Shown: piece after piece, positions 22,155 through 39,088 of the stretch
Layout: each line of letters starts with the position of its first letter
How positions within the stretch are numbered: position 1 is the first letter of the stretch
Notes under the pieces: model-generated
The model's database searches: none
What the model saw: only the letters and a program-made list of their open reading frames with translations
Told to the model about the DNA's origin: nothing
Program-made: the position numbers and the translations under genes
From: Arcobacter defluvii
GTDB taxonomy: Bacteria; Campylobacterota; Campylobacteria; Campylobacterales; Arcobacteraceae
Direction of reading: 5' to 3'
Assembly (NCBI RefSeq): GCF_013201725.1
Contig: NZ_CP053835.1
Location: 124,001 to 188,000 of the forward strand
Length of the DNA: 64,000 nucleotides

Positions 22155-22742
22155 TTGCCATATTTTGTCTCTTCTATAATTGCGATAGTTTCTGCAATGA
22201 TTATTTTATTTACAAGATATGAAGCTGATGATAGTGCAATTACAGGTGAACTTGAAAAAATGAAATCAATGTTTATTACAATTGATGGATTTGTAAATAC
22301 TTATATCCAATCTGGTGGAGATTTATCTAGTATAAATTTTGAAGAACTGTATAACAACGGTATTTTACTTGGAAATATAGAAAAAGGTACAGGTAAAGAA
22401 GTTGAGGGTACAAATTATACTTCTACTTTAACTTTTCCTAAAAGTGGAGTTAAATGGCAGTTAATTCCGGTTAGAGACATTAATTCTAATGATGCTAATG
22501 CTGATTTTGGTGATTCAGCAGGTAGTGCATATAAACTTTTGGTTGATATGCATAATAATTCTACTTTAATGAGTAAAGCAATATTTTCAGAGAGTTTTTC
22601 AGGTAGAGAATTTTGTGAAAAGATGCTTTTAGGGACTTTACAAAGAAATGCAAAAACTTATGTTCCAATTGAAAATAAAGAGACTTTTTCTTTTGATGGA
22701 ACAGATAGTGATGGGTATTTTGTTTGTATAGTTTTTAAGTGA
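22155..22742 (+). CDS. Pilin-like protein with C-terminal cysteine pair
   Basis: This 195-residue protein starts at TTG with ribosome site aagga. It begins MPYFVSSIIAIVSAMIILFTRYE, a hydrophobic helix at the extreme N terminus with no Sec-type or charged prepilin leader. An amphipathic helix (ITGELEKMKSMFITIDGFVNTYI) and a beta-rich domain follow. Two cysteines near the C terminus (GREFCEK and YFVCIVFK) are placed like the D-region disulfide of type IV pilins. The hydrophobic start matches that of the next gene. I read it as a minor or initiating pilin; the processing route is unclear because no Gly-Phe/Glu5 cleavage motif is visible. Confidence 0.6.
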   Translation: MPYFVSSIIAIVSAMIILFTRYEADDSAITGELEKMKSMFITIDGFVNTYIQSGGDLSSINFEELYNNGILLGNIEKGTGKEVEGTNYTSTLTFPKSGVKWQLIPVRDINSNDANADFGDSAGSAYKLLVDMHNNSTLMSKAIFSESFSGREFCEKMLLGTLQRNAKTYVPIENKETFSFDGTDSDGYFVCIVFK

Positions 22743-22824: not shown

Positions 22825-23523
22825 ATGCCACAGTTGATAGCGATGATTATCGTAGTAGTTGGAGCAATGATTTATATGTTCCAAACATTTGGGGGAACTG
22901 GAGATAAAATCGAAGGTATTGCACAAAAAACGAGTGTTATTACAGAGATTAATAATATTAAGAATGGTTTAAAATTAGCTGCAAGAAGTGGAAGTATTGC
23001 AACGGCTGATAATGCTACTAATGATGAATATAATAAACTTGCAGGTATAGCTAAGTTAAAATACTTTGCTGAGCAAATTAATGAACAAATATCTAAAGAT
23101 AAAGATGGTGTTTCAAGAACAACAACTGATTTTAATACTTATGCTGCTATTTCTTTTGGTGGAAATAGTGATAATGCAACTTCTGCAACTGCTGATATGA
23201 TAATTCGTTTGGTAGCAAACACAAAAGGACAAATTCCTGGAATATTTGTAGATTTATCAAGAGGTGGATTAAAAGATGGAGCAGGTTTCCTTGAATCTCA
23301 AATTGCTAATGATTTAAAATCTGTAGCGACGATAGATAGAAAAGCAAATGTAGCGACTGCTACTGATACACCAGCTGCAGGTGCATTAAGAACAACAGGT
23401 ACAGATGTTGAAAAAAGAATTCCTGTTGAAACAACAGGTGCAGATACATTGTTAAATGATGGTATGTTTACAATTTATTTCCAAGATTTTGGTTCAAATG
23501 AAGTTGTAATTGATAATAATTAA
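22825..23523 (+). CDS. Probable major pilin-like subunit
   Basis: This 232-residue protein begins MPQLIAMIIVVVGAMIYMFQTFGG, a hydrophobic N-terminal helix directly after Met-Pro, as in the previous gene. The helix KIEGIAQKTSVITEINNIKNGLKLAARS continues, then an Ala/Thr/Gly/Asp-rich globular region ends DGMFTIYFQDFGSNEVVIDNN. There are no cysteines. The composition, a strong ribosome site (aagggga), its own promoter and a following hairpin suggest an abundant structural subunit. It lacks the canonical prepilin leader and Glu5. It could instead be a secreted or membrane-bound filament protein of another kind. Confidence 0.6.
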   Translation: MPQLIAMIIVVVGAMIYMFQTFGGTGDKIEGIAQKTSVITEINNIKNGLKLAARSGSIATADNATNDEYNKLAGIAKLKYFAEQINEQISKDKDGVSRTTTDFNTYAAISFGGNSDNATSATADMIIRLVANTKGQIPGIFVDLSRGGLKDGAGFLESQIANDLKSVATIDRKANVATATDTPAAGALRTTGTDVEKRIPVETTGADTLLNDGMFTIYFQDFGSNEVVIDNN

Positions 23524-23524
23524 T

Positions 23525-23556: not shown

Positions 23557-23600
23557 CAAAAAATAAGTACTAAGTTTTAGCATTTATTTTTTGTTTTTAT
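23557..23600 (+). terminator. Second AT-rich hairpin with T-rich tail before the 23.6-kb gene
   Basis: Arms caaaaaataa (23557-23566) and ttattttttg (23584-23593) followed by gttttt resemble a weak intrinsic terminator. With the preceding stem it would lower expression of the distal assembly genes. Confidence 0.4.
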
Positions 23601-23621
23601 TCTTAAAAAAGGTTTTTTCTA

Positions 23622-24326
23622 ATGTTTGGAAATATATGGCTATCATCGGCACTCATTGTTACAGCTATATTCTCAGCAAGTGCTATGTATAAATCTTATA
23701 GTGATATTCAAGAAGCCAAACAAATCCAAGAACATTATGAAATAATTTCTGAAATCAAAACTCTAATAGCCAAGCAATATAATAAAAATCCACAAGATAT
23801 AACAAGAGATGAAATAATCGCCAATTTACCAAAAGGTGAAAATTGGGAAAAAGTTTTACTTTTGGATAGAGATAAATCTAGTAATTTATCAAATAAAGAG
23901 TTAGTAAATAATGATGGAGATATTGTTATAAATGAGAGCGAAAAACTAAAACTACTTGCCTTAAAAGCGAAATTAAAAGATATTATAGATGTAAATTCTA
24001 TTTCTGCAACAAATAATAAATATACTTTTGAAGTAGGGCAACAAAATAAAAATAGTGTTATAAAAGATATTGATATTGAAGATAGTATTACTAAAGCAAT
24101 TGATGCATTAGCAAAAGATATTTTATATTCAACTACAACAAATAAAGAAACTGTAGTAAATGATGTCGTTGATGAATTTATTCCTAATGATAAACTCTAT
24201 TTTTTAGAAGATTCAACAGAAGTTGAGAAAAAAAATTATTTTAAATCAAAAATAAAAGAGAGACTTTATAAAAACGAAAACTCACTAGAAACAAGACTTT
24301 ATAAAGAATTGAAAGATGTGTTATGA
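23622..24326 (+). CDS. Minor pilin-like membrane-anchored protein
   Basis: This 234-residue protein has a hydrophobic N-terminal helix (MFGNIWLSSALIVTAIFSASAMYKSYSDI) running straight into an amphipathic helix (EAKQIQEHYEIISEIKTLIAKQY), the shape of a pilin. The short MFG lead could be a tiny prepilin leader ending in Gly, but this is uncertain. The segment NPQDITRDEIIANLPKGENW resembles the early part of the module in the exported proteins downstream. The stop overlaps the next ATG (ATGA), so it is coupled to the following exported-protein genes. I read it as a minor pilin. Confidence 0.55.
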   Translation: MFGNIWLSSALIVTAIFSASAMYKSYSDIQEAKQIQEHYEIISEIKTLIAKQYNKNPQDITRDEIIANLPKGENWEKVLLLDRDKSSNLSNKELVNNDGDIVINESEKLKLLALKAKLKDIIDVNSISATNNKYTFEVGQQNKNSVIKDIDIEDSITKAIDALAKDILYSTTTNKETVVNDVVDEFIPNDKLYFLEDSTEVEKKNYFKSKIKERLYKNENSLETRLYKELKDVL

Positions 24327-25051
24327 AAAAGATTGTAATTATATTTTTTATTTTTATTAATATCTCTTATTCATTGGATTTAGATAATTTTGAAGAGAGA
24401 CAAAAAGCCTTACAAGATGTAAAAACAATTATTTTATATGAAGAATCAATTGCAAAAGCTTATGAAGAGTATATTTTGACAAATTATGCAATTGCTGATT
24501 TAACTCAAATTAAAAGTTTGATTGGTGATATTACAACAACAATTTCAGGTATTACTACTACACTTAATTTAGATGGAACTTTGATGAAAGTTTCTTATGG
24601 TTTAAATAATGATTTAAAAGCAGATAGTTCAATAAAAGCACTATATGAAAGTAATACTTATAGAAAAAGAACTTATGTTAGAAATGATGAAGTAAATTTT
24701 ATTCTTGAAGATGAATTTGCAAAACATTTATATGATTTGATAAAACAAAATGGCGGAGCGATTGAAGATTGTCCAATGACAGCATTTACAACAGCCGTAA
24801 ATTGTAAAGAGAATAATCATATTTATATTCAACTGACAAAAAAACTTGATGGTTTAGAAGTTGTTCCAGATACTTATTTGATAGCATATCATGTTGATAA
24901 TTTTAAAACTGGACCAATAATTATTACAAACGATACTTCAAAACATATCACAGAAAGTGCTTTTGATTCTATACCAAAAGGTGCTTTGTTATATGACACT
25001 GATGGTGTAAAATATGTAAAAACTTTAGATGGAATAGAGATTTTAAAATGA
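24323..25051 (+). CDS. Sec-exported pilin-like-module protein 1
   Basis: This 242-residue protein has a signal peptide (MKKIVIIFFIFINISYS). The mature part begins with the helix VKTIILYEESIAKAYEEYIL, shared with the products of the next two genes and of the gene at 34.8 kb. A motif YESNTYRKRTY and the segment LYDLIKQNGGAIEDC follow, with a cysteine pair (Cys in EDCPMT and VNCKEN). It looks like a pilin globular domain exported through Sec instead of carrying a pilin transmembrane helix. Function is unknown; it overlaps neighbours on both sides (ATGA type). Confidence 0.6.
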   Translation: MKKIVIIFFIFINISYSLDLDNFEERQKALQDVKTIILYEESIAKAYEEYILTNYAIADLTQIKSLIGDITTTISGITTTLNLDGTLMKVSYGLNNDLKADSSIKALYESNTYRKRTYVRNDEVNFILEDEFAKHLYDLIKQNGGAIEDCPMTAFTTAVNCKENNHIYIQLTKKLDGLEVVPDTYLIAYHVDNFKTGPIIITNDTSKHITESAFDSIPKGALLYDTDGVKYVKTLDGIEILK

Positions 25052-25812
25052 TTAGACAATTTATACTTTTGATTACAATTTTAATATCATCTTTTTCTCA
25101 AGATACATTAACAGCGCAAAAACAAAATACTTTATATATTCAAGATTTGATTCAAATAGAAGAGAATATCGCAAAAAATTTTGAAAAATATATTTTAAGT
25201 GAATATAAAATTCCAACAATAACAGATTTAATAGATGATAACTATTTAGGAAGTAATTTTTCTGTACTAAATAGAATGGGTGAAAATATTGATTTTAAAG
25301 ATAGTTCAAAATTACAACTAAAATATGCAATTACAAAAGATGAATACAGAAAAACAAAAGATGAAAATCTAGGAATTGAAAATTTTTTAGTTCAACTTTA
25401 TAATAGAGATTTATATAGAGATTACACAACTGTTTTTAGTGATGATACTGATGTAAATAATATGTACGTTGAGTTTGAGCTAAAGTCCGATGAAGCAAAA
25501 AATATATTTGATTTATTAAAAAATGGAAACAGTATTGCAAAAACTTGTGTTGCTTCACTAAAAAGCACTTATTGCAACAATAATGATAGAACAATTAGAT
25601 GGTATAACGCTAGTTCAAATTGGATTGAATATGATAAAAAAGATTTTAATAAAGGAAATATAACAGTTAGCAGTGAAAGTATTCTAACTTCAGAAACAAC
25701 AAAACTTTCTAGTTTAAAAGTTGGTAGTTATATTTTTATAAAAGATAAAACAAAAAATGTAAAAATGATAGATGATTCTTCTGGAAATTTACAAATTCTA
25801 AAGGTGGATTAA
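25048..25812 (+). CDS. Sec-exported pilin-like-module protein 2
   Basis: This 254-residue paralogue of the preceding gene has a short signal peptide (MIRQFILLITILISSFSQ). The shared helix reads LIQIEENIAKNFEKYILSEYKIPTI, then DDNYLGSNFSVLNRMGENI, the YNRDLYRDYT motif, IFDLLKNGNSIAKTC and a second cysteine (STYCNNN). The C-terminal part (LKVGSYIFIKDKTKNVKM) resembles a stretch in the large propeller protein that follows. The TAA stop at 25810 is in the same frame as that next gene, whose signal peptide begins at the very next codon. Confidence 0.6.
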   Translation: MIRQFILLITILISSFSQDTLTAQKQNTLYIQDLIQIEENIAKNFEKYILSEYKIPTITDLIDDNYLGSNFSVLNRMGENIDFKDSSKLQLKYAITKDEYRKTKDENLGIENFLVQLYNRDLYRDYTTVFSDDTDVNNMYVEFELKSDEAKNIFDLLKNGNSIAKTCVASLKSTYCNNNDRTIRWYNASSNWIEYDKKDFNKGNITVSSESILTSETTKLSSLKVGSYIFIKDKTKNVKMIDDSSGNLQILKVD

Positions 25813-28800
25813 ATCAAAACTCTAATTTTTATAATTATATTTTTTAATTTTGTTTTTGCGTCAAGTGAAAATATATCATTGATGAATAATGTAAAATCTC
25901 TTATTCAAAAAGAGGAATATATATCATTAGCATTAAATAAATATATTTTACAAACAGGAAAAATTCCTAAAAAAAGTGATGATACAATAGATTGGGATAA
26001 ATTAGAAGTTGAAGACTATTTAGGAACAAATTTTAATAAAACAAATCCTATTACTTTAAAAGATATTGTAATAACTTTTGATGATAAAAATAGTGCATTT
26101 ATTAAAGGTGCTATCGAAAAAGAGACAGATTATAAGGAAGAGTATAACTATTTATATAATTTTTATACAAATAAGGTATTTAGAGTAAATACAATTTCAC
26201 CCAAAAGTATTTTGCCGGCAGATTTAGAAAAAGGTACTCAAGTTTTATATAATAATATTCAAAAAGAGATAGCTTCCGTTATAACAAAAAATAAGAATTC
26301 TATAGTTTTACCTTCTCAAAATTGTAATACAGGAGAATATTTTTATGAATTAAAAAATGAAAAGTTAACATATAAATATTGTAAGGCGATTGGTAATTCT
26401 ATTGAAATATATCAAAAAACACCAGTCTATTTAGATAATTTAGATGATTTATCTTATATAAAAGTTGGAATAGGTGAAAAGGCTTATGTAAAAGATGGAA
26501 ATTCTTGGTATGAGTATTATTATGAAGGAAATAATACATGGATACCATCAGGAACAGGAAGAACAACTTCACAAGTAAATGATGAGATTACTATGCAAGA
26601 AAGAATATTATCTTATATCCCTGATTCAAAAGATTTAGTTATAAGAAATAATGGTGGGTGTATGCTTGCTAATGGAGATATATTTTGTTGGGGGAACAAT
26701 AAATACAAAAAATCAGGTATAGAAACTTATGGGCAAATAGATTACAAATTAACTCCTAATTATGTAAATACTCCTGTGATGTTAAAAGTTGACATTGAAA
26801 ATATTAAAGTTGAAGATGAAACTTTAAATTTAATATCTAAAAGATGGTATAACAATCCATATAGAGTAAAATTTGAAAAAATGGCGATGAATGATAAAAA
26901 TGTTTGTGGTATTTCTCCTATATTTGATTATTATGAATCAGGGATTAGATATAAAATAGGTGGAGATTTATATTGTAATGGATACCTACATTCTGATTAT
27001 TTTTATGTTGAGAATATAGGACAAACTCAAACTTCTATTTTAAGAAAAAATAAAATAATATCAAATGGAAAAGATGGTGGTATTTATAGTTCATCAGTAA
27101 TTTATCTAAAAGATATTGTAATGATAGATGGAACTTTTATTTTATTATCTGATACAGGAAAAATTTATAGTTTTGGATCAAATCTAAAAGGATCGTTAGG
27201 AATAAATAATACTGATGAAAATTTTTCAACATATATTCCCCAAACACTTGAAAGTGAAGTAACTTTTAAAAAGATTTATGCATTAAGAGATATAAAAGGT
27301 TTTGGAGCTTTAGATGAAAATAATAATTTTTGGATTTGGGGAGAAAGAGCTAATGGAAAAATATACTATAAGCCTACTATATTATCTAATTCAAAAAAAT
27401 TCAACGAAGATGGGATATTTGTAAATAGTAAAGAGTTTATACTAAAAGGGGTTGATAATAAATTTTATAGAACTTATGATGATATAAGTATTAAAGATTT
27501 GGGAATAGATGGTGGAACATTGAGTGCTTCTGTTTATGATTATGGAACAAAACAGTTACTAGTTTATGTGGATAAAAATATGCAATTACAAGGTTCAAAT
27601 GAATTATTAACTTGTATGGATAAAGATTTTAATAGTTGTTCAACAGCAGATAAAACTATATTTTCAACAGCATTAACTGAATTAAATAGTTTAACAAATA
27701 CTATAAATAATAGCTTATATGCAAACTTTTCAAATGTTTCAATTTTTGAGGGTAAAATTAATAAAACAGTTGTTGATTATGGAACAGATTATACAGAAGA
27801 TTTTGAAAATAGTTCAACAACAGGTTGGAATGTAAACTATATACATGATGGAGAGAGTGTTACAGGGAAGTTTTTAGGAAGATTAGGAAATGGTAGAATT
27901 GATACTACAAGTGGTAGTCAAACAGTATATAAAACTTTTAGTTTAGGAAGTTCTTGGGCAAATAAAAATATAAAAATAGCATTTGATATGTATGAAATAG
28001 GTTATTGGGATGGAAACAATGGAAATGGATTGGAAGATGCTTTTTATGTTTATATAAATAATGTTTTAGTTAGTAAAGATACTTATACAAGAGATGATTC
28101 AAAAGATACAAAAGTAGGAACAGATTTAGGAATTCTACCAAATTCAGGCAACAATTATATTCAAAAACATCAATATTCATACAGTATTACTCTTGATTCA
28201 ACAGGAAGTTTTAAATTAGGTTTTGGAGCAGCCTTGGGTGGATGGCATAATGTAGCAGGTAAAAATGCAGATTATACAGTAGAATCTTTTGGTATAAATA
28301 ATATAGATATCTCAAAACAGATTGATAATGTAACTTTTTCAAGTAATGTATATTTAGAAACTTTTGAAGATGAAAATCATGACTATTGGGTTGTTCCCCC
28401 AGGTCCAGTACCTTATACGGCTTCAACAAGTGAATTTTATAAATATCCTATTTATGTAGATAGTGGAACAGCAACTAAATTTTTAGGAAGATTTAATAAA
28501 AAATCTTCAAGTGGAACAATTTATCATGGTAATAGTGATGGAAGTGAAGAAGTTTATAAAGTATTTAGCTTTGGAGCAGAAAATGCAAATAAACAAGTTA
28601 CTATAAGTTATGATTTTTATAGAATTGGAACTTGGAGACATGATATATGGTATACAATAGATAAATTTTATACTTTTATAAATGGAAATAGAACGGAAAC
28701 ATATTCAACACCAATTTTAGATTATTATAGCTTTCGAAAATTTACATTTACTAGAACAGAGTATTTAGATGCATATGGAAATATAAGACTTGGGTTTGGG

Positions 28801-29184
28801 GCTTATATAAAAGATAATGATATTACTCAAACATCTTGGGGAATTGATAATGTAAAATTCACTTTAACAGGAAATACAAATACCTCAGGTGGAAGTTCAA
28901 GTACTTCTACAAAAGAGGTAAGTGTACCAACTATTTGTACAATGACAGGAATAGGTAGTTCTTCTCAAATGTATTGCTGGGGTAATGTAGGGCGTAGTAT
29001 CCCTATTTTAAGTACATCTTTATATGATGTTGATAAAATATCTACTATTAATAAATTATTTGTTACGCAAGAAAGTGATGTTCATACACAAATGGCTTTT
29101 GATAATTTTAATAATAGTGGAAATCTGTTTTTAAAATATCCAACTTACATCGGGGGCTTTGATTATGCATTTTATTTTAAATAA
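25813..29184 (+). CDS. Large exported protein: pilin-like module, RCC1-like propeller, tandem lectin-like domains
   Basis: This protein has about 1123 residues. The first canonical starts are TTG 25879 and ATG 25882, but in-frame sequence from ATC 25813 encodes a perfect signal peptide (IKTLIFIIIFFNFVFASSE) and sits 6 bp after an aaggtgg ribosome site, so ATC initiation is proposed. From residue 30 come the shared helix (SLIQKEEYISLALNKYIL), the DYLGTNF motif and a cysteine pair. RCC1-like blades follow (CMLANGDIFCWGNN, DLYCNGYL, KIYSFGSN, NFWIWGER, MYCWGN). Between the fourth and last blade lie two tandem domains of about 170 residues (27787-28320, 28350-28890) with FLGR and LGFGA motifs. 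The tail ends KYPTYIGGFDYAFYFK. A surface or tip adhesin is likely. Confidence 0.65.
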   Translation: MKTLIFIIIFFNFVFASSENISLMNNVKSLIQKEEYISLALNKYILQTGKIPKKSDDTIDWDKLEVEDYLGTNFNKTNPITLKDIVITFDDKNSAFIKGAIEKETDYKEEYNYLYNFYTNKVFRVNTISPKSILPADLEKGTQVLYNNIQKEIASVITKNKNSIVLPSQNCNTGEYFYELKNEKLTYKYCKAIGNSIEIYQKTPVYLDNLDDLSYIKVGIGEKAYVKDGNSWYEYYYEGNNTWIPSGTGRTTSQVNDEITMQERILSYIPDSKDLVIRNNGGCMLANGDIFCWGNNKYKKSGIETYGQIDYKLTPNYVNTPVMLKVDIENIKVEDETLNLISKRWYNNPYRVKFEKMAMNDKNVCGISPIFDYYESGIRYKIGGDLYCNGYLHSDYFYVENIGQTQTSILRKNKIISNGKDGGIYSSSVIYLKDIVMIDGTFILLSDTGKIYSFGSNLKGSLGINNTDENFSTYIPQTLESEVTFKKIYALRDIKGFGALDENNNFWIWGERANGKIYYKPTILSNSKKFNEDGIFVNSKEFILKGVDNKFYRTYDDISIKDLGIDGGTLSASVYDYGTKQLLVYVDKNMQLQGSNELLTCMDKDFNSCSTADKTIFSTALTELNSLTNTINNSLYANFSNVSIFEGKINKTVVDYGTDYTEDFENSSTTGWNVNYIHDGESVTGKFLGRLGNGRIDTTSGSQTVYKTFSLGSSWANKNIKIAFDMYEIGYWDGNNGNGLEDAFYVYINNVLVSKDTYTRDDSKDTKVGTDLGILPNSGNNYIQKHQYSYSITLDSTGSFKLGFGAALGGWHNVAGKNADYTVESFGINNIDISKQIDNVTFSSNVYLETFEDENHDYWVVPPGPVPYTASTSEFYKYPIYVDSGTATKFLGRFNKKSSSGTIYHGNSDGSEEVYKVFSFGAENANKQVTISYDFYRIGTWRHDIWYTIDKFYTFINGNRTETYSTPILDYYSFRKFTFTRTEYLDAYGNIRLGFGAYIKDNDITQTSWGIDNVKFTLTGNTNTSGGSSSTSTKEVSVPTICTMTGIGSSSQMYCWGNVGRSIPILSTSLYDVDKISTINKLFVTQESDVHTQMAFDNFNNSGNLFLKYPTYIGGFDYAFYFK

Positions 29185-29195
29185 GGAAACATATT

Positions 29196-30854
29196 TTGAA
29201 AAATTATAAAAATTTATTATTTTTAGGCACACTCTTTTTTCTACTTGGTGGTTGTAGTTCAAAAAGTTATCATGATGAAATGATAGATAAAACTAAACAA
29301 TCTTTTGATAAGAAAGATTATAATGAACTAAAAGAGTCATATTCAGCTTCTTTGGTAGATGAAAAAAATAAATCAAAAGAGTTTATTTCCATTTTAGAAG
29401 ATAAATCTTTAGGTGATATACTAAAAGAGATGGAAGTAATAGATGGTAATTTTTATTATTTAAAAAGTAGTGATGTATTAATTCCAAAAAGTAGAATAAA
29501 AATTCATAATATAACAGAGTTAAATCAGTATTTAAATGCAGTTTTAGATAAAGAACTTTTCATCAAAAAGAATGGTTCAATTTATTTAGTAAAACTATTA
29601 AGTACAAGTGAAACAAAAAAACAATCAATAGAACACATTCCATTTAAACTTGATGGTCAAATCTCAGTAGAAGAGCTAATTAAACTAATAACTGCTGAAT
29701 CAGGTTATGAAGTGACTATTGGAAATTATATAGATAATAGAGATGATTTTCAAAATAGTATAGTAAGTATTAGTTCAAAAAACTTGAAAGATGCTTTAAA
29801 CTCTTTAGGACATGCAAAAGATGTATTTGTTGATATAGATTATGATAAAGAAGTTATAAATATAACTAGATATAAAGATTCTGTAATAGAGTTAAATATC
29901 CCTCTTTTAGATATAAAATCATCAAGTCAAACTTCAAATCAAGAAACAACAGGTGAGAGTAAAGTAGAAAATAATGCACAAATTGTTTTATATGATGAAC
30001 TAGACAAAATGTTAAAAAATATAATTTCAAATGATAAAATATCAACTTATCATATAGATAAAGCAAGTGGTTTGGTATTTTTAAAATCAACAAAATCAAT
30101 AGAAAATACAGTAAGAGCAGTAGCAAAAGCTTATGAATCAACATTTTCAAAAGAAGCTGTTATAGAGTTTGAAAGAATAGAGTTACTATTAAATAAAAAT
30201 AGAGAATATGGAATAGGAAGTATAACTGATGATAGACAAACAAATGCAGGAGCAGGAGTTGTTAGAGAAATAGGAACAGGTGGAGCAATTAATTTTACAA
30301 GTGATAATCTAACAAGACTTTTAAAAATCACTGCAACTGCAAATAATGAAATAGGAAAAATATTAAATTACAGTAAAAATATGTTGGTATTAAAAAATAA
30401 TATCCCAACAGTACAATCAATTACAGATAATACAGATTATGTTGAAAAAATAGAAACAACAATCGATTCTGACACAAATACAAGAACTTCTGATGTTACA
30501 GTTAATACTTTAAAAGAAGGTACTTCAATAACTGCAATGGCAAAGATATCAAGAGATAAGATATTTTTAAATATTACTCCTACAATAAAAAAACTTATTG
30601 AATTTGGAGAAGTTAGTGTTGATGGAACAATGATAAAATTACCACAATACAACGACCAAAGTTATAATATTTCAAGAGAGATAAGATTAGGTGAAACATC
30701 AATTGTTGGATCAATTATTGTTCATGATGACACAAAAAATTATCAAGGAATTTTGCCAGTTGAAGGTTTTGCAATAGGTGGAAGTGATTCAAAATCTTAT
30801 GTAAGACGTGAAATAGTTTATGTAGTTACTCTTAAAAATATAAAAGGCTTTTAA
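29196..30854 (+). CDS. Lipoprotein secretin, PilN/BfpB/TcpC type (type IVb)
   Basis: This 552-residue outer-membrane secretin starts at TTG with ribosome site aagga. The signal peptide ends in a lipobox (LLGGC, Cys20), as in type IVb secretins that pilot themselves to the outer membrane. An N-domain (about 150-230, VEELIKLITAESGYEVTI...LKDALNSL) and a ring-building domain (IDKASGLVFLKSTKSIENTVRAVA) precede the C-terminal secretin core (about 320-552). The core contains NMLVLKNNIPTVQS, KIFLNITPTIKKL and the RREIVYVVTL end. It forms the outer-membrane gate for the filament or exported proteins. Confidence 0.85.
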   Translation: MKNYKNLLFLGTLFFLLGGCSSKSYHDEMIDKTKQSFDKKDYNELKESYSASLVDEKNKSKEFISILEDKSLGDILKEMEVIDGNFYYLKSSDVLIPKSRIKIHNITELNQYLNAVLDKELFIKKNGSIYLVKLLSTSETKKQSIEHIPFKLDGQISVEELIKLITAESGYEVTIGNYIDNRDDFQNSIVSISSKNLKDALNSLGHAKDVFVDIDYDKEVINITRYKDSVIELNIPLLDIKSSSQTSNQETTGESKVENNAQIVLYDELDKMLKNIISNDKISTYHIDKASGLVFLKSTKSIENTVRAVAKAYESTFSKEAVIEFERIELLLNKNREYGIGSITDDRQTNAGAGVVREIGTGGAINFTSDNLTRLLKITATANNEIGKILNYSKNMLVLKNNIPTVQSITDNTDYVEKIETTIDSDTNTRTSDVTVNTLKEGTSITAMAKISRDKIFLNITPTIKKLIEFGEVSVDGTMIKLPQYNDQSYNISREIRLGETSIVGSIIVHDDTKNYQGILPVEGFAIGGSDSKSYVRREIVYVVTLKNIKGF

Positions 30855-30856
30855 TA

Positions 30857-31873
30857 ATGAGTATGTTTGCTGATCCATATGAACAATTTTTACTTGATTA
30901 TCTTGTAACAAAACTTGAAAATGGTTCTAATACAAGAAGAGCATTATTGTTGTATAGTGAACAAATTACAAGAGAAACAAACTTCAAAAAAAGATTAATG
31001 GCTGCTATAAAAGATATGGAATTAGGAAAACATAAACTAGAAGCAATTTTGCATAAACATAAGTTTTTAAATAGTTTCCAATTTAGTTTAGTTGTTAATA
31101 GTACAAATACAATTGATGGATTAAAACTGGTATTATCTTTTAAAAAGGCAAATTCAAATTTGATAATGAAGATGATTAACCCAATTTTTGTTCCTTTATC
31201 TATCATTATTGGAACTTTCTATGGTTTGATTTTATATCTTGATATTCTACAAAAAGATTTACTTCAATTAAGAAAATTAAATCCTGATGTTGAGCAATTT
31301 TTAGGAATACCAAAATATTTTACATATGATGTTGCTTATATAGGATTAGGTATTTCCATATTTGTTACTGCATTTATATTTTTTGGATATTTATACACTG
31401 AAAAATATAAGCCAGCTTGGTTATATAAAGTATTTAAAACACAAGCATTTTCAGATGGAAGATTTATGTTTAGAATTTTAAATGGAATGCTTAGTGCTGG
31501 TATTTCTTTTCATAAAACTTCATTGATTTTATCAAAAGATTATTTCAAAGATGGATTTAGACCATTTTTCAAAGATTTAGCTGAAATGATAAATAAAAAT
31601 AAGAAATTGTTTATTATGTTTGAAAGATATAATTTTCCTGCAATTATCACAGCAGATATAAAACTATCAGAACTTAGTAAAACAAGTTTTTCAGAAGTGA
31701 CAAAAGCTTTATATCAAACTTGCGACACAATGTATGAAAAAAATATCAATTATATGGTTTTGCAATGGAAATTTCTATTTTGGATGATTGCAATGTTAGT
31801 TACAGTAATAATAGGTTCTGATGTTATAAATTTAGTAATTAGTACCTTTACATTTAAAACTTTATATCAATAA
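30857..31873 (+). CDS. GspF/PilC/PilR-type inner-membrane platform protein
   Basis: This 338-residue membrane protein has the typical layout: a cytoplasmic helical domain, a hydrophobic segment near 112-130 (FVPLSIIIGTFYGLILYLDIL), a second near 165-180, a second cytoplasmic helical domain (FRILNGMLSAGISFHKTSLIL) and a C-terminal span (FLFWMIAMLVTVIIGSDVI). It is the platform on which the assembly ATPase acts. It lies 2 bp after the secretin gene and 12 bp before the ATPase gene, the R64-like order secretin/ATPase/platform being rearranged here. Confidence 0.8.
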   Translation: MSMFADPYEQFLLDYLVTKLENGSNTRRALLLYSEQITRETNFKKRLMAAIKDMELGKHKLEAILHKHKFLNSFQFSLVVNSTNTIDGLKLVLSFKKANSNLIMKMINPIFVPLSIIIGTFYGLILYLDILQKDLLQLRKLNPDVEQFLGIPKYFTYDVAYIGLGISIFVTAFIFFGYLYTEKYKPAWLYKVFKTQAFSDGRFMFRILNGMLSAGISFHKTSLILSKDYFKDGFRPFFKDLAEMINKNKKLFIMFERYNFPAIITADIKLSELSKTSFSEVTKALYQTCDTMYEKNINYMVLQWKFLFWMIAMLVTVIIGSDVINLVISTFTFKTLYQ

Positions 31874-31885
31874 AAGACAGAAGAT

Positions 31886-33577
31886 ATGATAAAAAAAATA
31901 GTAACTACTTTAAAAAATGTACCAAACTTTAGTTTTATGAAAAAAGATAAAAAGAAAAAAGCTAATAAAAAAGATTTTCTAAACGAGATAAATTTTAAAA
32001 GTTTTTTTGAAAAACAAAAAAAATCAATTTATGATTTTATAGGTAAAAGTGACGACCCAGATACTCACTTATCAAATGTAATTGAAGATATGATAAAAGA
32101 TAAATTTCACCTAAAAGGTGGATATGGAGATTTAATTGCAAATGAAGAAAAATATGAACAATTTGTAAGAACTTTGGGTTATGAGTATTATGCAACTTAT
32201 AATGAGTTATCAAAATATTATCAAGATACTTCTTTTCAATTAGATGAAAAAAAACTTGAATTTTGTACAACAATGTATATTATTACATTGGAAGATAAAA
32301 AGAATAAAAATAAAGTTTTAGGTATTAGAGATGTTGTAAATCTTGATTTTGAAATTTTAAGTAAGTTTTATTTTACAAAAATCGTAGTTTTAGGTGAGGG
32401 CGTTTTATCTTCAGTATTTGGAGAAGATAGAGAGATTATTTTTAGTTCAAATAGTGATACTGAAAATGACGAAGAGATAAATAAATATTTTGACAAAATG
32501 ATGGGGCAAGCTATTTTACTTGGAGCTTCTGATATTCACATACAAAAAACAAGTAGATATGCATCTTTATGGTTTAGAATAGATGGTATAAAAGTTGATA
32601 TGGGAACAATGCCAATTACTATTGCAAAAACAGTAAAAAGAAGATTGGTAACCATGGCAGATCAAGAAGATTCTGATTATGAATCAATTAATGGTGTTAT
32701 AAATTATGAATATGGTAAAAAAAATATCAAATTTAGACTTGGGCTTATAAACTCAAAATTAAATTTTTCTTTAGTTATGAGGATGATTGGTGGACGTGGA
32801 GTTGTTTCTCATAATCTAAGAGGATTAAATTATCCACAAGAAACAGTTGATATTTTATCAAACTTAACAAAATATGCAAATGGAATGATATTAATCACAG
32901 GACAAGTTGGTTCAGGAAAAACTCACTTGATGTATGCACTTTTACAACAATTAGCAAAACAACAACAATATGTTATAACTATTGAAGATCCAGTTGAGTA
33001 TGTGGATGAATCATTTTTCCAAATTGATTTATCTGAGTTTGCAAGTGCAAGTGAAGAGTTCAAATATGGTTATCCAGAAGCCGTAGTTGATATTTTAAGA
33101 CAAGATTCAAATATTATACTTATTGGAGAAACAAGAGAACCTCAAACGGCATCTCAACTTGTTAATGCTTCTAACTTAGGTCAGTTGGTATTCTCAACTA
33201 TGCATACTAACTCTGCTCCTGCAACAGTTTCAAGGATGACAAGTTCTCTTGGAATTAATGAAGGGGATATTATAGATAACTTAAGAGGAATAGTGTCTCA
33301 AAGATTAGTTAGAAAACTTTGTAGTTATTGTAAAGAACCAGATGGTGAAGGTGGTTATAAAAAAGTTGGTTGTGATGAGTGTAATAATACTGGATTTAAA
33401 GATAGGGTACCAATTGCTGAGGTTATTAGATTTAAACTTGGACATGGTGGAGATTTTGATAATCCAGCAGAATATATGACAGTAGAAAAAGCTGCAATGG
33501 CTCAATATAATGAGGGACTAATAACAAAAGAGGATGCAGTAGCTATCATCAGAGGAGAAGAAGTATGGTACGATTAG
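31886..33577 (+). CDS. GspE/PilB-type assembly ATPase
   Basis: This 563-residue secretion/pilus-extension ATPase has a basic N-terminal region (about 1-70) and then an N-domain. The motor follows: Walker A GQVGSGKT (about 338-345), Asp box TIEDPVEYVD, Walker B IILIGETR (about 410), His box STMHTNS (about 437). A zinc-type tetracysteine module follows (CSYC about 478 and CDEC about 495), which favours an extension ATPase (GspE/PilB) over a PilT retraction motor. No second ATPase is visible in the cluster. The stop overlaps the next start by 13 bp. Confidence 0.92.
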   Translation: MIKKIVTTLKNVPNFSFMKKDKKKKANKKDFLNEINFKSFFEKQKKSIYDFIGKSDDPDTHLSNVIEDMIKDKFHLKGGYGDLIANEEKYEQFVRTLGYEYYATYNELSKYYQDTSFQLDEKKLEFCTTMYIITLEDKKNKNKVLGIRDVVNLDFEILSKFYFTKIVVLGEGVLSSVFGEDREIIFSSNSDTENDEEINKYFDKMMGQAILLGASDIHIQKTSRYASLWFRIDGIKVDMGTMPITIAKTVKRRLVTMADQEDSDYESINGVINYEYGKKNIKFRLGLINSKLNFSLVMRMIGGRGVVSHNLRGLNYPQETVDILSNLTKYANGMILITGQVGSGKTHLMYALLQQLAKQQQYVITIEDPVEYVDESFFQIDLSEFASASEEFKYGYPEAVVDILRQDSNIILIGETREPQTASQLVNASNLGQLVFSTMHTNSAPATVSRMTSSLGINEGDIIDNLRGIVSQRLVRKLCSYCKEPDGEGGYKKVGCDECNNTGFKDRVPIAEVIRFKLGHGGDFDNPAEYMTVEKAAMAQYNEGLITKEDAVAIIRGEEVWYD

Positions 33578-34314
33578 TAATTACTGATTTTGCAACAAAA
33601 GAAGATAGTGAATTTTTTTATATAAATGATGAATTTGATATTTCTCAAAATATGTTCACATATCAATCTTTTAAGAAATATAGTGTTTATTTATCTAAAT
33701 ATACTAATGATGAAATATACTCTTTAAATCTATTATCAAGAAAATATTTAGGGAAAAATCAATTTCTAATCCATATTGCTGATGGAGAATATGTAATTTT
33801 ATTTAATCATAAAACAGTTTATTCTGCAAAAATAAACCAAAATTTTATTACAGATGATATGATTAAATCGATTTTGATTACAAAACATATTGCAATGCTT
33901 TCAAGTGGTGGAGCAATAGAAAATATCTATTATGTAATTAATTCAAAATATAAATGTGCAATAGAAAATATTTTGAAACAAAATACAAAAAATGAAAAAC
34001 AAGAAGTTGTTGCAAAATCATTGGGAGAGATGGAAGAGCTAGTAAAACCTTTAAAAGAGTTAGATACTACAAAATCACATATAACAAAATTGGTTTATAT
34101 GTCTTTATTGTTAGGTGCTAGCTTTTGGATAATATTTTTTGGATTAAAAACAATAACAGATAAAGTATTTTATATTGAGCCTTTAGAAAATTTAAATCGA
34201 GAGTTGAAAATAGAAACACAGTTAGCAAAAAGGCAACAAATATTATTGAATGATAATCAAAAAAAATATAAAGATTTAACTGATTGTATAAGTAAAAATG
34301 AGGTAGTTAAATGA
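33565..34314 (+). CDS. BfpC/GspL-like bitopic inner-membrane assembly protein
   Basis: This 249-residue protein has a soluble cytoplasmic N-terminal domain of about 165 residues, one transmembrane span (about 176-197, LVYMSLLLGASFWIIFFGLKTI) and a short periplasmic coiled coil (NRELKIETQLAKRQQILLNDNQ). This architecture matches GspL/PilM-PilN fusions and BfpC/TcpR-type proteins that dock the assembly ATPase. The strand pattern GEYVILFNHKTVYSAKI is reminiscent of the actin-like fold but has no nucleotide motif. The assignment rests on architecture and position, right after the ATPase. Confidence 0.55.
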   Translation: MVRLVITDFATKEDSEFFYINDEFDISQNMFTYQSFKKYSVYLSKYTNDEIYSLNLLSRKYLGKNQFLIHIADGEYVILFNHKTVYSAKINQNFITDDMIKSILITKHIAMLSSGGAIENIYYVINSKYKCAIENILKQNTKNEKQEVVAKSLGEMEELVKPLKELDTTKSHITKLVYMSLLLGASFWIIFFGLKTITDKVFYIEPLENLNRELKIETQLAKRQQILLNDNQKKYKDLTDCISKNEVVK

Positions 34315-34802
34315 TTAGTCTTAGTAATAAACTTATATTAAATATTAGTAAAATAGTTATATCAACATTAGTTATATACTCAGCTTTATACATAACTTTT
34401 AGAGCAATGAATTATTATAAAAGCTATTATGAAAAAGAAAAACTAACAAACGAACTTCAAGTTAAAAGAGAAGAAACAAACTCTTTGAAAACAAAAGTAA
34501 ATGAAGCAAAAAAAAGAATTCAAAATTTAGAAAAGAGTTATATAACAAAAGAGGAATTAGAACCAAAAGTAAAAGAGATATTTAAGAGAATGTCTTTAGT
34601 TGATTATCAATTAAATTATATAGATGCCAAAAAAATGTGTATTGATAGATATATAATAGTAGCAAGAATACATACTGAAAGTGAAAATGGATTAAAAGCA
34701 GCGGAGGGAATTTTATCATATTTAGGAGAGATTAAAAAAAGTGATAAAGATGACTCTTTATATTTTGTAAATTATATTTCAAAAGCGAAGGAAATAAAAT
34801 GA
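34311..34802 (+). CDS. PilO/GspM-like bitopic protein
   Basis: This 163-residue protein has one N-terminal span (about 10-28), a periplasmic coiled coil (EKEKLTNELQVKREETNSLKTKVNEAKKRIQNLEKSY) and a small C-terminal alpha/beta domain (DYQLNYIDAKKMCIDRYIIVARI). The layout is that of PilO or GspM, inner-membrane alignment proteins that pair with PilN/GspL. Start and stop overlap both neighbours (ATGA type), indicating tight coupling. Sequence motifs are not diagnostic. Confidence 0.5.
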   Translation: MISLSNKLILNISKIVISTLVIYSALYITFRAMNYYKSYYEKEKLTNELQVKREETNSLKTKVNEAKKRIQNLEKSYITKEELEPKVKEIFKRMSLVDYQLNYIDAKKMCIDRYIIVARIHTESENGLKAAEGILSYLGEIKKSDKDDSLYFVNYISKAKEIK

Positions 34803-36973
34803 GATTTAATTTAAAATCATTTTTCCTTTTATTCCTTTTTATAAGTGTATTAAATGCAGATAATAATGTAGATACTTTGACTTTAACAAAAATTAAAAAA
34901 CTTGTGCAAAAAGAAGAAGAAATTGCAATTGCCTATAAAAAATATATTTTAGAAAAAGGTGAAAATCCAACTAATATATCTAGTTTATTAATAGATAATT
35001 ATTTACCAAAGGGATTTAGTACAATAAATCCATTTGGTAAAATAATTAGTTTAATAGAAGATAATAAAATAGAAAGTTCATTGCCAGAGGATATGAATTT
35101 AAAATCAAATTTATATGATTATTACTATTCAAATAAGTATAGAACCTATACAAAAGCTCCATTAAAAATAAAAAAAGATGATAAAGATAATAATGATGAA
35201 GTTGGAATCTTATTATCATCTAAAGAGAAATTTATTTATTCAAATAAATCAAAAATTACTACAACTAAAGAAGATGCAAAAGATAAATATTTTTTAGATT
35301 CAAAAGGTGTTTTACATTGGTATGATGCTTCAGGAAAATATAAATTTTCATTTGATAATGAATTACTTCTTGATGAAAGTGTGACTTTATTAAATGATGA
35401 TGGAACAGTTAATACAGAGTATAAAAATTTGGTAAGTGATGTCTCTTTTGCTGGAATGACAGTATTACATAAAAATGCAACTTCAAATACAGCAGATGAA
35501 TATATTATGATAGGTTCATCAAATGCAGTAAAAGTTAAACAGATAACAAGAGATATAGGAAAAACAATAATTCAATTTACAAGACGTGCAGGTGGAATGA
35601 TAATAAATGGAGATATCTATACGTGGGGAAATAATGCAAATAAAATTACAGGTATAGATATAGAAAAATTTACACAAGGTAATGGATTAGCAGGTTCCTA
35701 TAAAAATTTCCCTGTAATTACAGGACTTGTAAGAGCAAAAGTAAAGACATATAATACAAGTTTAGATAATCAGAATTATTTTTCTTCACCACTAAGACCT
35801 AAATTTATAGATTTTTTTAGCACAGTTTATCATGGAACTTGTGGTATTTCTACAAAAGGTGAATTGTATTGTGGTGGAGTGACTGCAGATAGCACAACTT
35901 CAATGTACACACAACTAGACACAAATAATCAAAGTAATCCCAAAGAGATGTTTTATAGAAGTAAATATTTTGATGGAACAGCTGATAAAAAAGCAACAAA
36001 AATATTTGCAAATAATCAAATTTGGTTGATTTTAGCTAATACTGATGTTGATGCAAATGGAAATTATCAAAATGGAAGAATTTATCGATGGGGTTATGAT
36101 TTTGCAGGTTTTGCAGGTGATGGAGGAAAATCATATAATAATAAAAATAATCCTACAGAAATAAGTGTAACAGAAAATAATACAAAAGTATTATTTAAAG
36201 ATATAACTTATTTATTGACAATTGGATATAGAAAAATGGCTGCATTATCTAATAATGGAAATGTATATCTTTGGGGATTAGATAATTATTATAATTACAG
36301 TTGTAAGCAAAAAATAAATAATACGACAGTAAATCTATGTAGTCCTTTAAAAGTTGATTCAGATATTGTATTTGCTTCTATTCAAGGAGGCTTAAATGCT
36401 TTTGTTGCAAAAGGTGAAGATGAAAAGTATTATAAAATAAGTCAAGCATGGGGAAAAGAGGTAAAAGTTGAATCAGTTGAAGAACTAATAAAAACAAATT
36501 ATGATAGTCAATACGATAAAGATAATGATAGTGAACTTATATCAGTTGATTTTACTTCTAACGGAATAGTATGGATAAATAGTAAGAATAAATTAAAGGG
36601 AGACTATTATACAAGTGAAAATGAATCAAATCCTATATTTAAGGATTCAATATCAAAAATTCAATGGAAAAAAATAAAAGTAATTGAAGATGATAATGGA
36701 ATGTGTGGAATAGATATATATAATCAAATGTATTGTTGGGGAATACAATCTTTTTATCGTTCTGGCTATGCAGATGGTAATACTTTTATGATACCTGTAT
36801 TTAATACAAATTTGTATGATTTAGATAGAGATTTTTTAGTAGCAGAAGGTGGAGATAATTATCTTACAAACATGACATCAGATGAATGGACAACAAATGA
36901 TTCAAAAAAACCATTTTTTATAAAATATCCTACATATATAGGTGGATTTAATTATGAGTTTATATTTAAATAA
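34799..36973 (+). CDS. Exported protein: pilin-like module fused to RCC1-like propeller
   Basis: This 724-residue protein has a signal peptide (MRFNLKSFFLLFLFISVLNAD). It contains the shared helix KKLVQKEEEIAIAYKKYIL, the DNYLPKGFSTINPFGK motif and YYSNKYRTYT. An RCC1-like propeller follows, with blades near residues 264 (GDIYTWGNN), 347 (CGISTKGELYCGG), 425 (GRIYRWGYD), 484 (GNVYLWGLD) and 634 (CGIDIYNQMYCWG). The tail LYDLDRDFLV...FIKYPTYIGGFNYEFIFK matches the C terminus of the larger propeller protein. The tandem lectin-like insertion is missing here. A surface-exposed binding or structural role at the filament is inferred. Confidence 0.65.
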   Translation: MRFNLKSFFLLFLFISVLNADNNVDTLTLTKIKKLVQKEEEIAIAYKKYILEKGENPTNISSLLIDNYLPKGFSTINPFGKIISLIEDNKIESSLPEDMNLKSNLYDYYYSNKYRTYTKAPLKIKKDDKDNNDEVGILLSSKEKFIYSNKSKITTTKEDAKDKYFLDSKGVLHWYDASGKYKFSFDNELLLDESVTLLNDDGTVNTEYKNLVSDVSFAGMTVLHKNATSNTADEYIMIGSSNAVKVKQITRDIGKTIIQFTRRAGGMIINGDIYTWGNNANKITGIDIEKFTQGNGLAGSYKNFPVITGLVRAKVKTYNTSLDNQNYFSSPLRPKFIDFFSTVYHGTCGISTKGELYCGGVTADSTTSMYTQLDTNNQSNPKEMFYRSKYFDGTADKKATKIFANNQIWLILANTDVDANGNYQNGRIYRWGYDFAGFAGDGGKSYNNKNNPTEISVTENNTKVLFKDITYLLTIGYRKMAALSNNGNVYLWGLDNYYNYSCKQKINNTTVNLCSPLKVDSDIVFASIQGGLNAFVAKGEDEKYYKISQAWGKEVKVESVEELIKTNYDSQYDKDNDSELISVDFTSNGIVWINSKNKLKGDYYTSENESNPIFKDSISKIQWKKIKVIEDDNGMCGIDIYNQMYCWGIQSFYRSGYADGNTFMIPVFNTNLYDLDRDFLVAEGGDNYLTNMTSDEWTTNDSKKPFFIKYPTYIGGFNYEFIFK

Positions 36974-36991
36974 AAATTTAAAAGGGAAAAT

Positions 36992-37993
36992 ATGAAGAGA
37001 ATAAGTATAATTTTATTGGGGTTATTTACAGCATTTAGTCTTTATGCAGAAGAACAAAATATGCAAAATATTGATAAGTTGGATGTTTTAGATCAACAAT
37101 CTAAAGAGTTTTTTAAAGCAATTACAGGACTTGAAAAAGATTATTTAGAAGAACAGGTTAATACAATCAAAAATAAAGAAAATATGCCAAATCAAAATCC
37201 AGTAAATCAACCTCAAACTATTATAAAAGAGGAACCAAAATTATCCCAAGAAGATTATGAAAAAAATGTATTTACTCATCAAAATGAAATGGCAAGACTA
37301 ACAACAGATTTTACAAGAACTAAAAAATTAAAAGATTTGAGAATTAAAAGTATGTACTCTTTTAATGGAAAAGATTATGTTGTTTTAGAGTTGAGTGACG
37401 AAGCAAATTCAAATAAACAAAACAATCAAAAATCAGAATTAAGTGCAAATATAGAAGGAAGATATGTAGAAGGTGATAATATTTTAGGGCATAAAATAAT
37501 CGATATTAATACAAGAACAAAAAGTGTAGAGTTGTATAAAAAACTTGATGAAGAGTATGGATACACTATTTATTTAAGTAATTATGGTATATCAGTAAGT
37601 GATTTAAAGAAAACAGAAAAAAAAGAAGAAAATAAAACTACTGAGAATAATAAAAATAAAAAAATAGAAAATGAACAAGAAAAACCTACTATAAAAAAAG
37701 CTTTTGAAAATGTGCAAACAGAGACTAAATTAACAAAAGAAGAACTTTCAAATTGTTTATACACAGTAAAAAAATATAACTTAAATGTAAGAAATGAAAA
37801 TGATTTAAATGCTAAAATCTTAAGAGTTTTAAAAATAAATGATCAATTTACGATTAATAAAAAAGATAAAGATTGGGTACAAATAAATACAATTTATAAA
37901 AAAATCTCAGGTGATGTGATGGATGTATCAAAAGAGAGTAACTGGGTGCAAGTAAGTGATGGAACTGTAAGTGCTACAAGTAATTGTAAATAG
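36992..37993 (+). CDS. PilP/GspC-like periplasmic protein with C-terminal SH3-like domain
   Basis: This 333-residue exported protein has a signal peptide (MKRISIILLGLFTAFSLYA). After a disordered Asn/Gln/Pro-rich linker comes a small beta-domain (IKSMYSFNGKDYVVLEL ... EGRYVEGDNILGHKIIDINTRTKSVELYK) with the shape of the homology region of GspC/PilP that contacts secretins. A Lys/Glu/Asn-rich linker follows, then a C-terminal bacterial SH3-type domain (YTVKKYNLNVRNENDLNAKILRVL...WVQI) that in other proteins binds peptidoglycan. It could tie the secretin to the inner-membrane complex and the cell wall. Confidence 0.5.
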   Translation: MKRISIILLGLFTAFSLYAEEQNMQNIDKLDVLDQQSKEFFKAITGLEKDYLEEQVNTIKNKENMPNQNPVNQPQTIIKEEPKLSQEDYEKNVFTHQNEMARLTTDFTRTKKLKDLRIKSMYSFNGKDYVVLELSDEANSNKQNNQKSELSANIEGRYVEGDNILGHKIIDINTRTKSVELYKKLDEEYGYTIYLSNYGISVSDLKKTEKKEENKTTENNKNKKIENEQEKPTIKKAFENVQTETKLTKEELSNCLYTVKKYNLNVRNENDLNAKILRVLKINDQFTINKKDKDWVQINTIYKKISGDVMDVSKESNWVQVSDGTVSATSNCK

Positions 37994-38002
37994 GAAATAA
38001 AA

Positions 38003-39088
38003 TTGGAAAATCTATACGATTATAAATCAGAAATTTCAAAAAACATTGAAAAAATATCAAATGAAGTTTTTATATTAAAAGCAAAATATAACAAGTTTTT
38101 TAATATAGAAGAGATATTTTCTAGTGAAAATGGTGGAAAAACTAGATTAAATAGACAAATATTCAATGAAAATCATGAAAATATTCAAACATCTATTTTG
38201 GAAATAAGTTTATGTATAGATGAAATTATTGGCATTTTAAAAGAAGAAATGAAAAAGTTATTGGCAAAATATCATCAATTCGATAAAGTTGAGTTAGTAA
38301 ATTTTATTTTTGATGATAAAAATTTTTTAGAAATATTAGCTTTGGATTTAGAAACTTTTGGAATAAAAGGTGAAAATAAGAAAAAATGTCTAAATGAGAT
38401 AAAAGAGCTGATAAATTTAAAAAATAAAATATTCAATCTAAAATATTTTATTGATATGTTTGATACAAATATATTTGATAAATATATCAATAGATTAGGT
38501 GTTGAAGATTTAATTAATAGTACTATTATTTTTGAAATTATTGATTCTTATGCTTTACAATTTGAAGAAGTAAAAAAATTTGCAGAACAAATAACTACGT
38601 TAGGGATGTTGAATGAAAAAGTAATAAATCTAAATAGTTTTAATAATTTACTTGAACTACATAAAAGACGAGTTGATAATTATGTTTATGCAGGAATAAA
38701 ATATAAGATTTTTGTTGAGTATAGTTGTGAAACAAATTTAAATAAATCAATTTATCTTAATAAAGCTTATTTGGAAAATATATTATCAGCTTTAATTGAA
38801 CAATCTTCTATGGATGTTGTAAAAAAAGAGTTAAAAAAAGGAAAGATACAAAAACAAATAGATGTAAATATAACTTTAAATAAAAATACTTTCCAAATAG
38901 TAGTAAAAAATAATGGTTTTGAAGTAAGAAATATTTATAATTTGTTTCTATCAGATGTTGATAATAAATATATTTTAGAAGCTAAAAATCTTTCAAATCT
39001 AATAAATGCAAAATTTGATATTACAGTAATTGACAACGAAGGTATGCAATATACTGTAACTCAAGTTTTAAAAAATACAGTACGATAA
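38003..39088 (+). CDS. Cytoplasmic protein with degenerate GHKL (HATPase-like) C-terminal domain
   Basis: This 361-residue protein starts at TTG with ribosome site aggaa. It has no signal or transmembrane span. The N-terminal two thirds are helical. The last 110 residues read like a histidine-kinase ATPase fold without its catalytic residues: an N-box-like helix (LNKAYLENILSALIEQSS), a strand-turn ITLNKNTFQIVVKNNGFEVRN where the usual D-x-G-x-G is replaced, and a closing LSNLINAKFDITVIDNEGMQYTV. No phospho-accepting His context is evident. It ends the pilus-like cluster; a regulatory or scaffolding role is a guess. Confidence 0.5.
   Translation: MENLYDYKSEISKNIEKISNEVFILKAKYNKFFNIEEIFSSENGGKTRLNRQIFNENHENIQTSILEISLCIDEIIGILKEEMKKLLAKYHQFDKVELVNFIFDDKNFLEILALDLETFGIKGENKKKCLNEIKELINLKNKIFNLKYFIDMFDTNIFDKYINRLGVEDLINSTIIFEIIDSYALQFEEVKKFAEQITTLGMLNEKVINLNSFNNLLELHKRRVDNYVYAGIKYKIFVEYSCETNLNKSIYLNKAYLENILSALIEQSSMDVVKKELKKGKIQKQIDVNITLNKNTFQIVVKNNGFEVRNIYNLFLSDVDNKYILEAKNLSNLINAKFDITVIDNEGMQYTVTQVLKNTVR

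Follow-up and report, generated by a model that had tools for sequence, protein, structure and literature searches.

What are two exported RCC1-type propeller proteins doing among the genes of a pilus-like machine, and why do both end in the same C-terminal tail? The question is raised by a locus of Arcobacter defluvii, whose 3.02 Mb genome is a single contig (NZ_CP053835.1) and of which we analysed a window of 64,000 nucleotides (contig positions 124,001 to 188,000). The two proteins, here called P1 and P2, are products of a type-IV-filament-like cluster of 14 genes at window positions 22155-39088, in the order g1, g2, g3, g4, g5, P1, secretin, platform protein (F), ATPase (E), h, i, P2, k, l. 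We consider it rather likely that this cluster encodes a type-IV-filament machine in which P1 and P2 are modular pilin-fold proteins, each bearing a propeller and serving as cap or tip adhesins; they are probably the tip adhesins of a surface fibre. Their link to a pilus is a shared N-terminal pilin-fold domain (N-domain), present on four products of the cluster and absent from the preliminary description of this DNA. The proteins that carry it, with their parts, are:

24323..25051, plus strand: g4, signal peptide and predicted pilin-fold domain, the N-domain being common with P1 and P2
25048..25812, plus strand: g5, signal peptide and predicted pilin-fold domain, the N-domain being common with P1 and P2
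25813..29184, plus strand: P1, 1123 amino acids (aa), with signal peptide, predicted pilin-fold domain, RCC1 propeller with inserted jelly-roll-like domains, and tail
25861..26616, plus strand: predicted N-terminal pilin-fold domain of P1, by alignment, homologous to the modelled P2 domain
27745..28932, plus strand: variable insert of P1, residues ~645-1040, two jelly-roll-like repeats as read from the sequence
29134..29181, plus strand: tail motif of P1, KYPTYIGGFDYAFYFK
34799..36973, plus strand: P2, 724 aa, with signal peptide, predicted pilin-fold domain, RCC1 propeller and tail
34856..35560, plus strand: predicted N-terminal pilin-fold domain of P2, residues 20-254, modelled with a predicted local distance difference test (pLDDT) of 88.7 and a predicted template modelling score of 0.84
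35555..36820, plus strand: RCC1 propeller of P2, by Pfam and structural match
36923..36970, plus strand: tail motif of P2, KYPTYIGGFNYEFIFK

The N-domain spans ~200-230 residues in g4, g5, P1 and P2 and follows the pattern K..IQKEE.IA.AY.KYIL....P....L...YL...F...NPFG. A profile built from it finds these four copies in the window genome, and four copies as well in most cluster-bearing genomes of a sample of the phylum. P1 and P2, which had been taken for otherwise divergent proteins joined by a tail, in fact have their whole architecture in common. An AlphaFold model of the P2 N-domain, obtained from an alignment of 31 paralogous and orthologous sequences, was compared with known structures by VIA-align, and the nine best rows are all pilins or pseudopilins, with Z scores of 6.2-9.7 that lie above every non-pilin: C. 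difficile PilA1 (9.7 and 9.4), PilW (8.4 and 7.7), PulG (8.2), EpsG (7.5) and type IVb pilins (7.0, 6.7 and 6.2). PulG superposes on the model with a root-mean-square deviation of 2.0 over 84 of 108 residues. The pilin match spans model residues 4-126; the rest (~127-235) forms a small beta domain for which no convincing structural match was found. Because the N-domain model matches type IV pilins and pseudopilins best, P1 and P2 are best read as modular pilin-fold proteins and, on the same model, all four N-domain proteins as pilin-fold proteins behind ordinary-looking signal peptides. P1 and P2 unite in one chain the two parts of a modular pilin, a predicted pilin-fold domain and, as the bulky module, an RCC1 propeller.

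Both proteins had been described as exported, and the signal-peptide-like N-termini recurring in the orthologues that we read support this. Read from the sequence, these N-termini appear short and hydrophobic, with A or S as their last residue (P2, MRFNLKSFFLLFLFISVLNA; P1, (I)KTLIFIIIFFNFVFA); a class III signal peptide, with a leader and a prepilin peptidase site, was recognized neither in g4, g5, P1 and P2, where the N-termini are Sec-like, nor in g1-g3.

RCC1 repeats, proposed earlier for both products, are recovered by Pfam in P1 (PF25390, E value 1.2e-9; PF00415, E value 4.7e-6, 27.5 bits with a cut-off of 21.7) and in P2 (PF25390, E value 4.4e-14), and in all aligned orthologues (8/8 sequences for P1, 20/20 for P2). 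For the PilC-type propeller (IPR008707), by contrast, neither protein gave a PilC family hit in Pfam at E values as high as 1. AlphaFold modelling, which had been suggested as a check for seven blades, supports the propeller in part. Residues 253-724 of the P2 model match RCC1 (1i2m) with Z 17.6 and UVR8 with Z 17.5, and they match seven-bladed Photorhabdus lectins too (Z ~15), the mean pLDDT of the whole protein being only 66; the structure models used proteins of the window and of related loci, and the alignment depth for P2 was limited. Five blade motifs are clear in P2 and fewer in P1, the remainder being degenerate.

Cysteine pairs such as those in CMLANGDIFC and CGISTKGELYC, both of which are present, had been read as signs of disulfide-stabilised repeats, and conservation makes such bonds likely. 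The pairs C348/C358, C502/C514 and C636/C646 are invariant in 20 sequences of P2, and five pairs are invariant in 8 sequences of P1, C283/C292, C365/C388, C601/C609 and C1042/C1055 among them. A distant variant of the locus (L052, genome G051, 5563-10169) encodes two tandem tail-less RCC1 proteins, each with an N-domain and seven RCC1 repeats as counted by eye; the disulfide reading is strong because six of the seven repeats of the second open reading frame carry a C-x9-C pair. The 900-aa member of this pair shows several cysteine-rich repeats between N-domain and propeller.

The P1 propeller holds ~400 aa of inserted domains before its last blade. Among the loci where it was measured, the insert varies from ~170 to 420 aa; its two repeats in the window are related to each other, and at locus L064 it is a Laminin_G_3 (LamG) lectin-like domain (PF13385, E value 1.2e-17). 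This appears to be the pattern of an exchangeable binding module. Since some carriers of the cluster may be animal-associated (Arcobacter vandammei and Poseidonibacter are among those named), the insert could matter for the surfaces to which they attach.

Several observations weigh against the picture of pilin-fold tip adhesins. By itself, Foldseek returned nothing significant for the N-domain (EpsG stood at rank 34, E value 3.2), and the pilin call comes from VIA-align Z scores of 6-9.7 among Foldseek's candidates, where a Z near 8 may be reached through a common arrangement. If the N-termini are cleaved as their likeness to signal peptidase I substrates suggests, cleavage would take away the first, hydrophobic half of pilin helix 1, so that polymerisation in the manner of ordinary pilins would be impossible. 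The pilin identity of g1-g3 found neither profile nor fold support in the searches made, and confidence in the modelled tail is low (pLDDT ~38-66). Finally, filament, tip location and ligand are all putative.

The tail raises the second half of our question. Both proteins end in LYD[VL]D...KYPTYIGGF[DN]Y.F.FK. Over the last 16 residues the mean pairwise identity reaches 0.90 in P2 (24 sequences), where no other stretch is as conserved, and 0.83 in P1 (22 sequences), which places them among its best conserved stretches. The common tail of the preliminary description is therefore real, and at this conservation its sharing is far beyond chance. An account with appreciable weight, even if it falls short of being likely, is that the tail forms the last strand pair closing the propeller ring (the RCC1 'velcro') and is conserved for folding and not for docking. 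When the low-confidence P2 model is aligned structurally, its residues up to 719-724 fall on the final strands of the UVR8 and RCC1 propellers, and conservation in both P2 and P1 peaks in the tail and the first blade strand, as expected if they were paired. However, the tail is more conserved than any other P2 strand. A profile from 208 internal a-b segments recognised tails no better than shuffled tails, nor did it separate them from N-domain windows, although with segments this short the comparison says little. Moreover, both G051 RCC1 proteins, of the same architecture, close their ring with the ordinary P..V strand and stop at that point. Since these tail-less proteins go no further than the ordinary closing strand, the tail has the look of something added once the ring is closed; because they are of the same kind, it is not needed by every version of the machine. 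An outer-membrane-barrel C-terminal signal was also considered for ...NYEFIFK and dropped, there being no barrel and the last residue being K or R in every tail read.

The remaining genes of the cluster, all on the same strand, provide the candidate filament subunits and the assembly apparatus:

22155..22742, plus strand: g1, putatively pilin-like, TTG start with a conserved M-P/A/G-Y beginning, hydrophobic N-terminus, no leader peptide
22825..23523, plus strand: g2, putatively pilin-like (MPQLIAMIIVVVGAMIYMF...), no leader peptide, no curated family match, candidate major subunit
23622..24326, plus strand: g3, membrane-anchored, putatively pilin-like, no leader
29196..30854, plus strand: secretin-like lipoprotein, NCBIfam MshL and PilN matches far below cut-off
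30857..31873, plus strand: inner-membrane platform protein, GspF-like, by position and a PF00482 match below cut-off (E value 0.017, 15.5 bits)
31886..33577, plus strand: assembly ATPase (T2SSE), PF00437, E value 3e-65
33565..34314, plus strand: h, bitopic membrane protein, apparently PilN-like from its position, layout and one transmembrane stretch
34311..34802, plus strand: i, apparently PilO-like membrane protein with a coiled coil, by layout, family matches all under cut-off
36992..37993, plus strand: k, exported protein, apparently PilP-like by layout, C-terminal SH3-like domain (PF08239, E value 9e-6, just under cut-off)
38003..39088, plus strand: l, cytoplasmic protein, last gene of the cluster by conserved order

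A T2SSE ATPase, a weak T2SSF match and pilin-fold proteins are thus encoded together in a conserved order, as in type IV filament systems, and the earlier label of a pilus-like operon stands. The secretin scored 43.1 of 250.2 bits for MshL and 21.9 of 287.65 bits for PilN, and no curated secretin family fits it at cut-off. The PilN-, PilO- and PilP-like names of h, i and k would follow from position and layout, profile scans having found no family match for h. Elsewhere in the genome, two T2SSE-family ATPase matches of identical score and a frame length of 344 aa (G000:C1:1257992-1258465 and G000:C1:1845690-1846163, outside the window) suggest a duplicated element, and the sole prepilin peptidase match (PF01478) lies far from the cluster at G000:C1:2817868-2818215. 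In other genomes (loci L098, L099 and L100 of G042, G043 and G051 C98), there is a second, MSHA-like system with a distant secretin and the ordinary prepilins KGITLIEIILAI, KGFTILEVILAL and KGFSLVELVIVI.

The candidate subunits g1 and g2 are paralogues by profile comparison (hhalign 93.9%, E value 1.6e-7). Such comparisons gave no link from g3 or g2 to the shared N-domain, and the g1, g2 and N-domain profiles retrieved nothing convincing among PDB sequences. In all loci, g1-g3 begin directly with their hydrophobic stretch and carry no leader peptide; in several genomes none is possible, because an in-frame stop lies 0-4 codons upstream.

Twenty complete or nearly complete Arcobacteraceae loci, on a map of 24, have an identical gene order; of the others, L045, L053 and L054 either run into a contig end or are missing the upstream genes, and L052 is the distant variant already mentioned. 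Poseidonibacter lekithochrous, P. ostreae and Arcobacter vandammei are among the relatives with the same cluster, although in one P. ostreae genome (G093) the h-i-P2-k-l part is kept and the upstream genes are gone. P2 occurs in 25/104 genomes of the family, counting the distant G051, and the full-length P2 family had no further members outside Arcobacteraceae in a sample of 397 genomes of the phylum. In the genus of the window the cluster is flanked by a UbiA-like gene with a tRNA-Arg (21845-21921) on one side and a PurT-like gene on the other. It behaves as a block gained and lost, because cluster-free genomes (G003, G004 and G025) keep these same neighbours 2-5 kb apart. A search of known plasmids found no cluster, the matches being distant secretins only (24% and 22% identity).

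This distribution bears on a further explanation, that the machine is a type II secretion system (T2SS)-type secretion or a DNA-uptake system, for which P1 and P2 would be substrates to secrete or receptors of DNA instead of tip adhesins. A secretin, an ATPase, a platform protein and several pilin-like proteins would fit either activity, and the ordinary-looking signal peptides of P1 and P2 resemble those of T2SS substrates. Nevertheless, we hold this to be unlikely: the pilin-fold domains of P1 and P2 are common to two small proteins of the cluster, no other substrate with the tail was seen in the 104 family genomes, and a cluster carried by only about a quarter of the family genomes does not suit core competence.

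With respect to the tail, the search in other genomes that had been proposed gave a clear outcome. A profile built on the final 95 residues detects it in 24/104 family genomes, on P2 in 24 and on P1 in 22, the two missing P1 tails belonging to genomes with an incomplete locus; within these 104 genomes every tail lies within the cluster. Relatives of the secretin with at least 54% identity occur in 24 genomes, and 23/24 of these carry the tail. A related machine in G049 (L096, 10113-18774; secretin 53%, ATPase 63%) has g3, g4, g5, P1 and P2 all missing nearby, while a 373-aa g1-like open reading frame lies near it on the opposite strand. The tail implies the machine; the machine does not imply the tail. 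That many exported proteins use the tail as a general signal for sorting or for anchoring at the cell surface, as its strong conservation on two proteins could suggest, is hardly credible, because the profile shows no carriers but P1 and P2 in the 104 family genomes, and scanning 84,980 species with YPTYIGGF plus one other motif yielded, as confirmed relatives, only Arcobacteraceae clusters and four RCC1-only matches. Of the role originally proposed for the tail as a machine-specific sorting, anchoring or docking signal, the specificity survives, and sorting or anchoring in the usual sense is not supported; a polymer-docking signal is possible, and such exceptional conservation on P1 and P2, partners in the same machine, is better explained by a common surface for docking than by sorting.

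Taken together, these findings allow us to propose a model for the tip. The proteins g4, g5, P1 and P2 would pass through Sec and have an ordinary signal peptide removed, and the four would then come together in the periplasm, joined through the pilin-like domains, as a cap for the leaderless pilins g1-g3, taking the role of the four minor pilins plus PilY1. The growing filament would push this cap through the secretin. In this arrangement, P2 would offer a constant propeller and P1 an exchangeable insert, probably carbohydrate- or protein-binding, and the tail, appended after propeller closure, would equip the two with one kind of docking surface, through which they would bind each other or a cap protein common to both. 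Cap, tip position, adhesion and docking are suggested here by analogy with modular pilins, the PilHIJK-PilY1 tip and the PilX2 protein of Saccharibacteria. A bolder version, to which we give limited credence, is a filament class without prepilin processing, with g1-g3 born at their mature N-terminus and a tip of four Sec-secreted pilin-fold proteins, of which two are RCC1 adhesins joined by the docking tail.

The start of P1 is unusual as well:

25801..25815, plus strand: AAGGTGG at 25801-25807, the TAA stop of g5 at 25810-25812, and ATC in the place of the P1 start at 25813-25815

The P1 frame has no ATG, GTG or TTG ahead of its signal peptide, and it starts directly after the g5 TAA, 5 bases past AAGGTGG. 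Among 22 genomes the start codon is ATC in seven (the window, L033, L034, L036, L037, L042 and L050), ATT in one (L038) and ATG in the others. The non-AUG start appears recurrent or long kept, because at least six changes are needed on the tree of the machine proteins. Across seven non-ATG genomes, differences in the signal-peptide codons are highest at third positions (188) and lowest at second positions (62), and this concentration argues that the stretch is translated. Read-through of the g5 TAA, instead of AUC/AUU initiation, is the weaker alternative. Such a conserved non-AUG start may affect the dosage of the tip protein, for which the clusters offer a test case.

Our literature search found no paper describing the Arcobacteraceae cluster, and a pilin-like protein with an RCC1 propeller is reported once in the literature found: PilX2 of Saccharibacteria (TM7x), which is pilin-like, has a seven-bladed RCC1 propeller and no PilD site, and is needed for T4P-2 pilus function (PMC12206443). 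Comparing architecture, not sequence homology, P1 and P2 are like PilX2 in having a pilin-like module followed by an RCC1 propeller, in lacking a PilD processing site and in being proposed tip adhesins. PilX2 belongs to another phylum and to a type IVa pilus-like system, whereas the cluster described here has a pair of such proteins sharing one tail, along with two further small relatives and a secretin, and one of the two propellers holds a variable insert. What is new is the Gram-negative setting, the tail shared by this pair, the insert that varies between loci and the leaderless pilin-like proteins.

Modular pilins such as PilB and PilC of Streptococcus sanguinis likewise join a small pilin module to a bulky functional module, and LamG/ConA-like lectin modules recur among them (PMC8179133). 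In contrast to these pilins, which have a class III signal peptide, P1 and P2 have ordinary Sec-like N-termini and the RCC1 propeller as the grafted module. Type IVa PilY1/PilC offers another parallel, as a large exported propeller protein proposed at the tip with four small pilin-fold proteins and variable extra domains; yet PilY1 has an IPR008707 propeller and is not a pilin, while P1 and P2 show RCC1-type repeats only (by Pfam) and have a pilin-fold module of their own. MSHA and other type IVb systems share with the cluster the secretin, ATPase and platform protein in one place and a weak MshL and PilN similarity, and they differ from it in that the secretin here scores far below cut-offs and the pilin-like proteins have no leader peptides. 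In this regard, the Arcobacteraceae clusters extend PilX2-type propeller adhesins to secretin-bearing Gram-negative bacteria, where both known solutions for the pilus tip, modular pilins and PilY1, are combined, and they provide a testable model for how a large propeller is placed on a filament and for whether leaderless pilins can build one.

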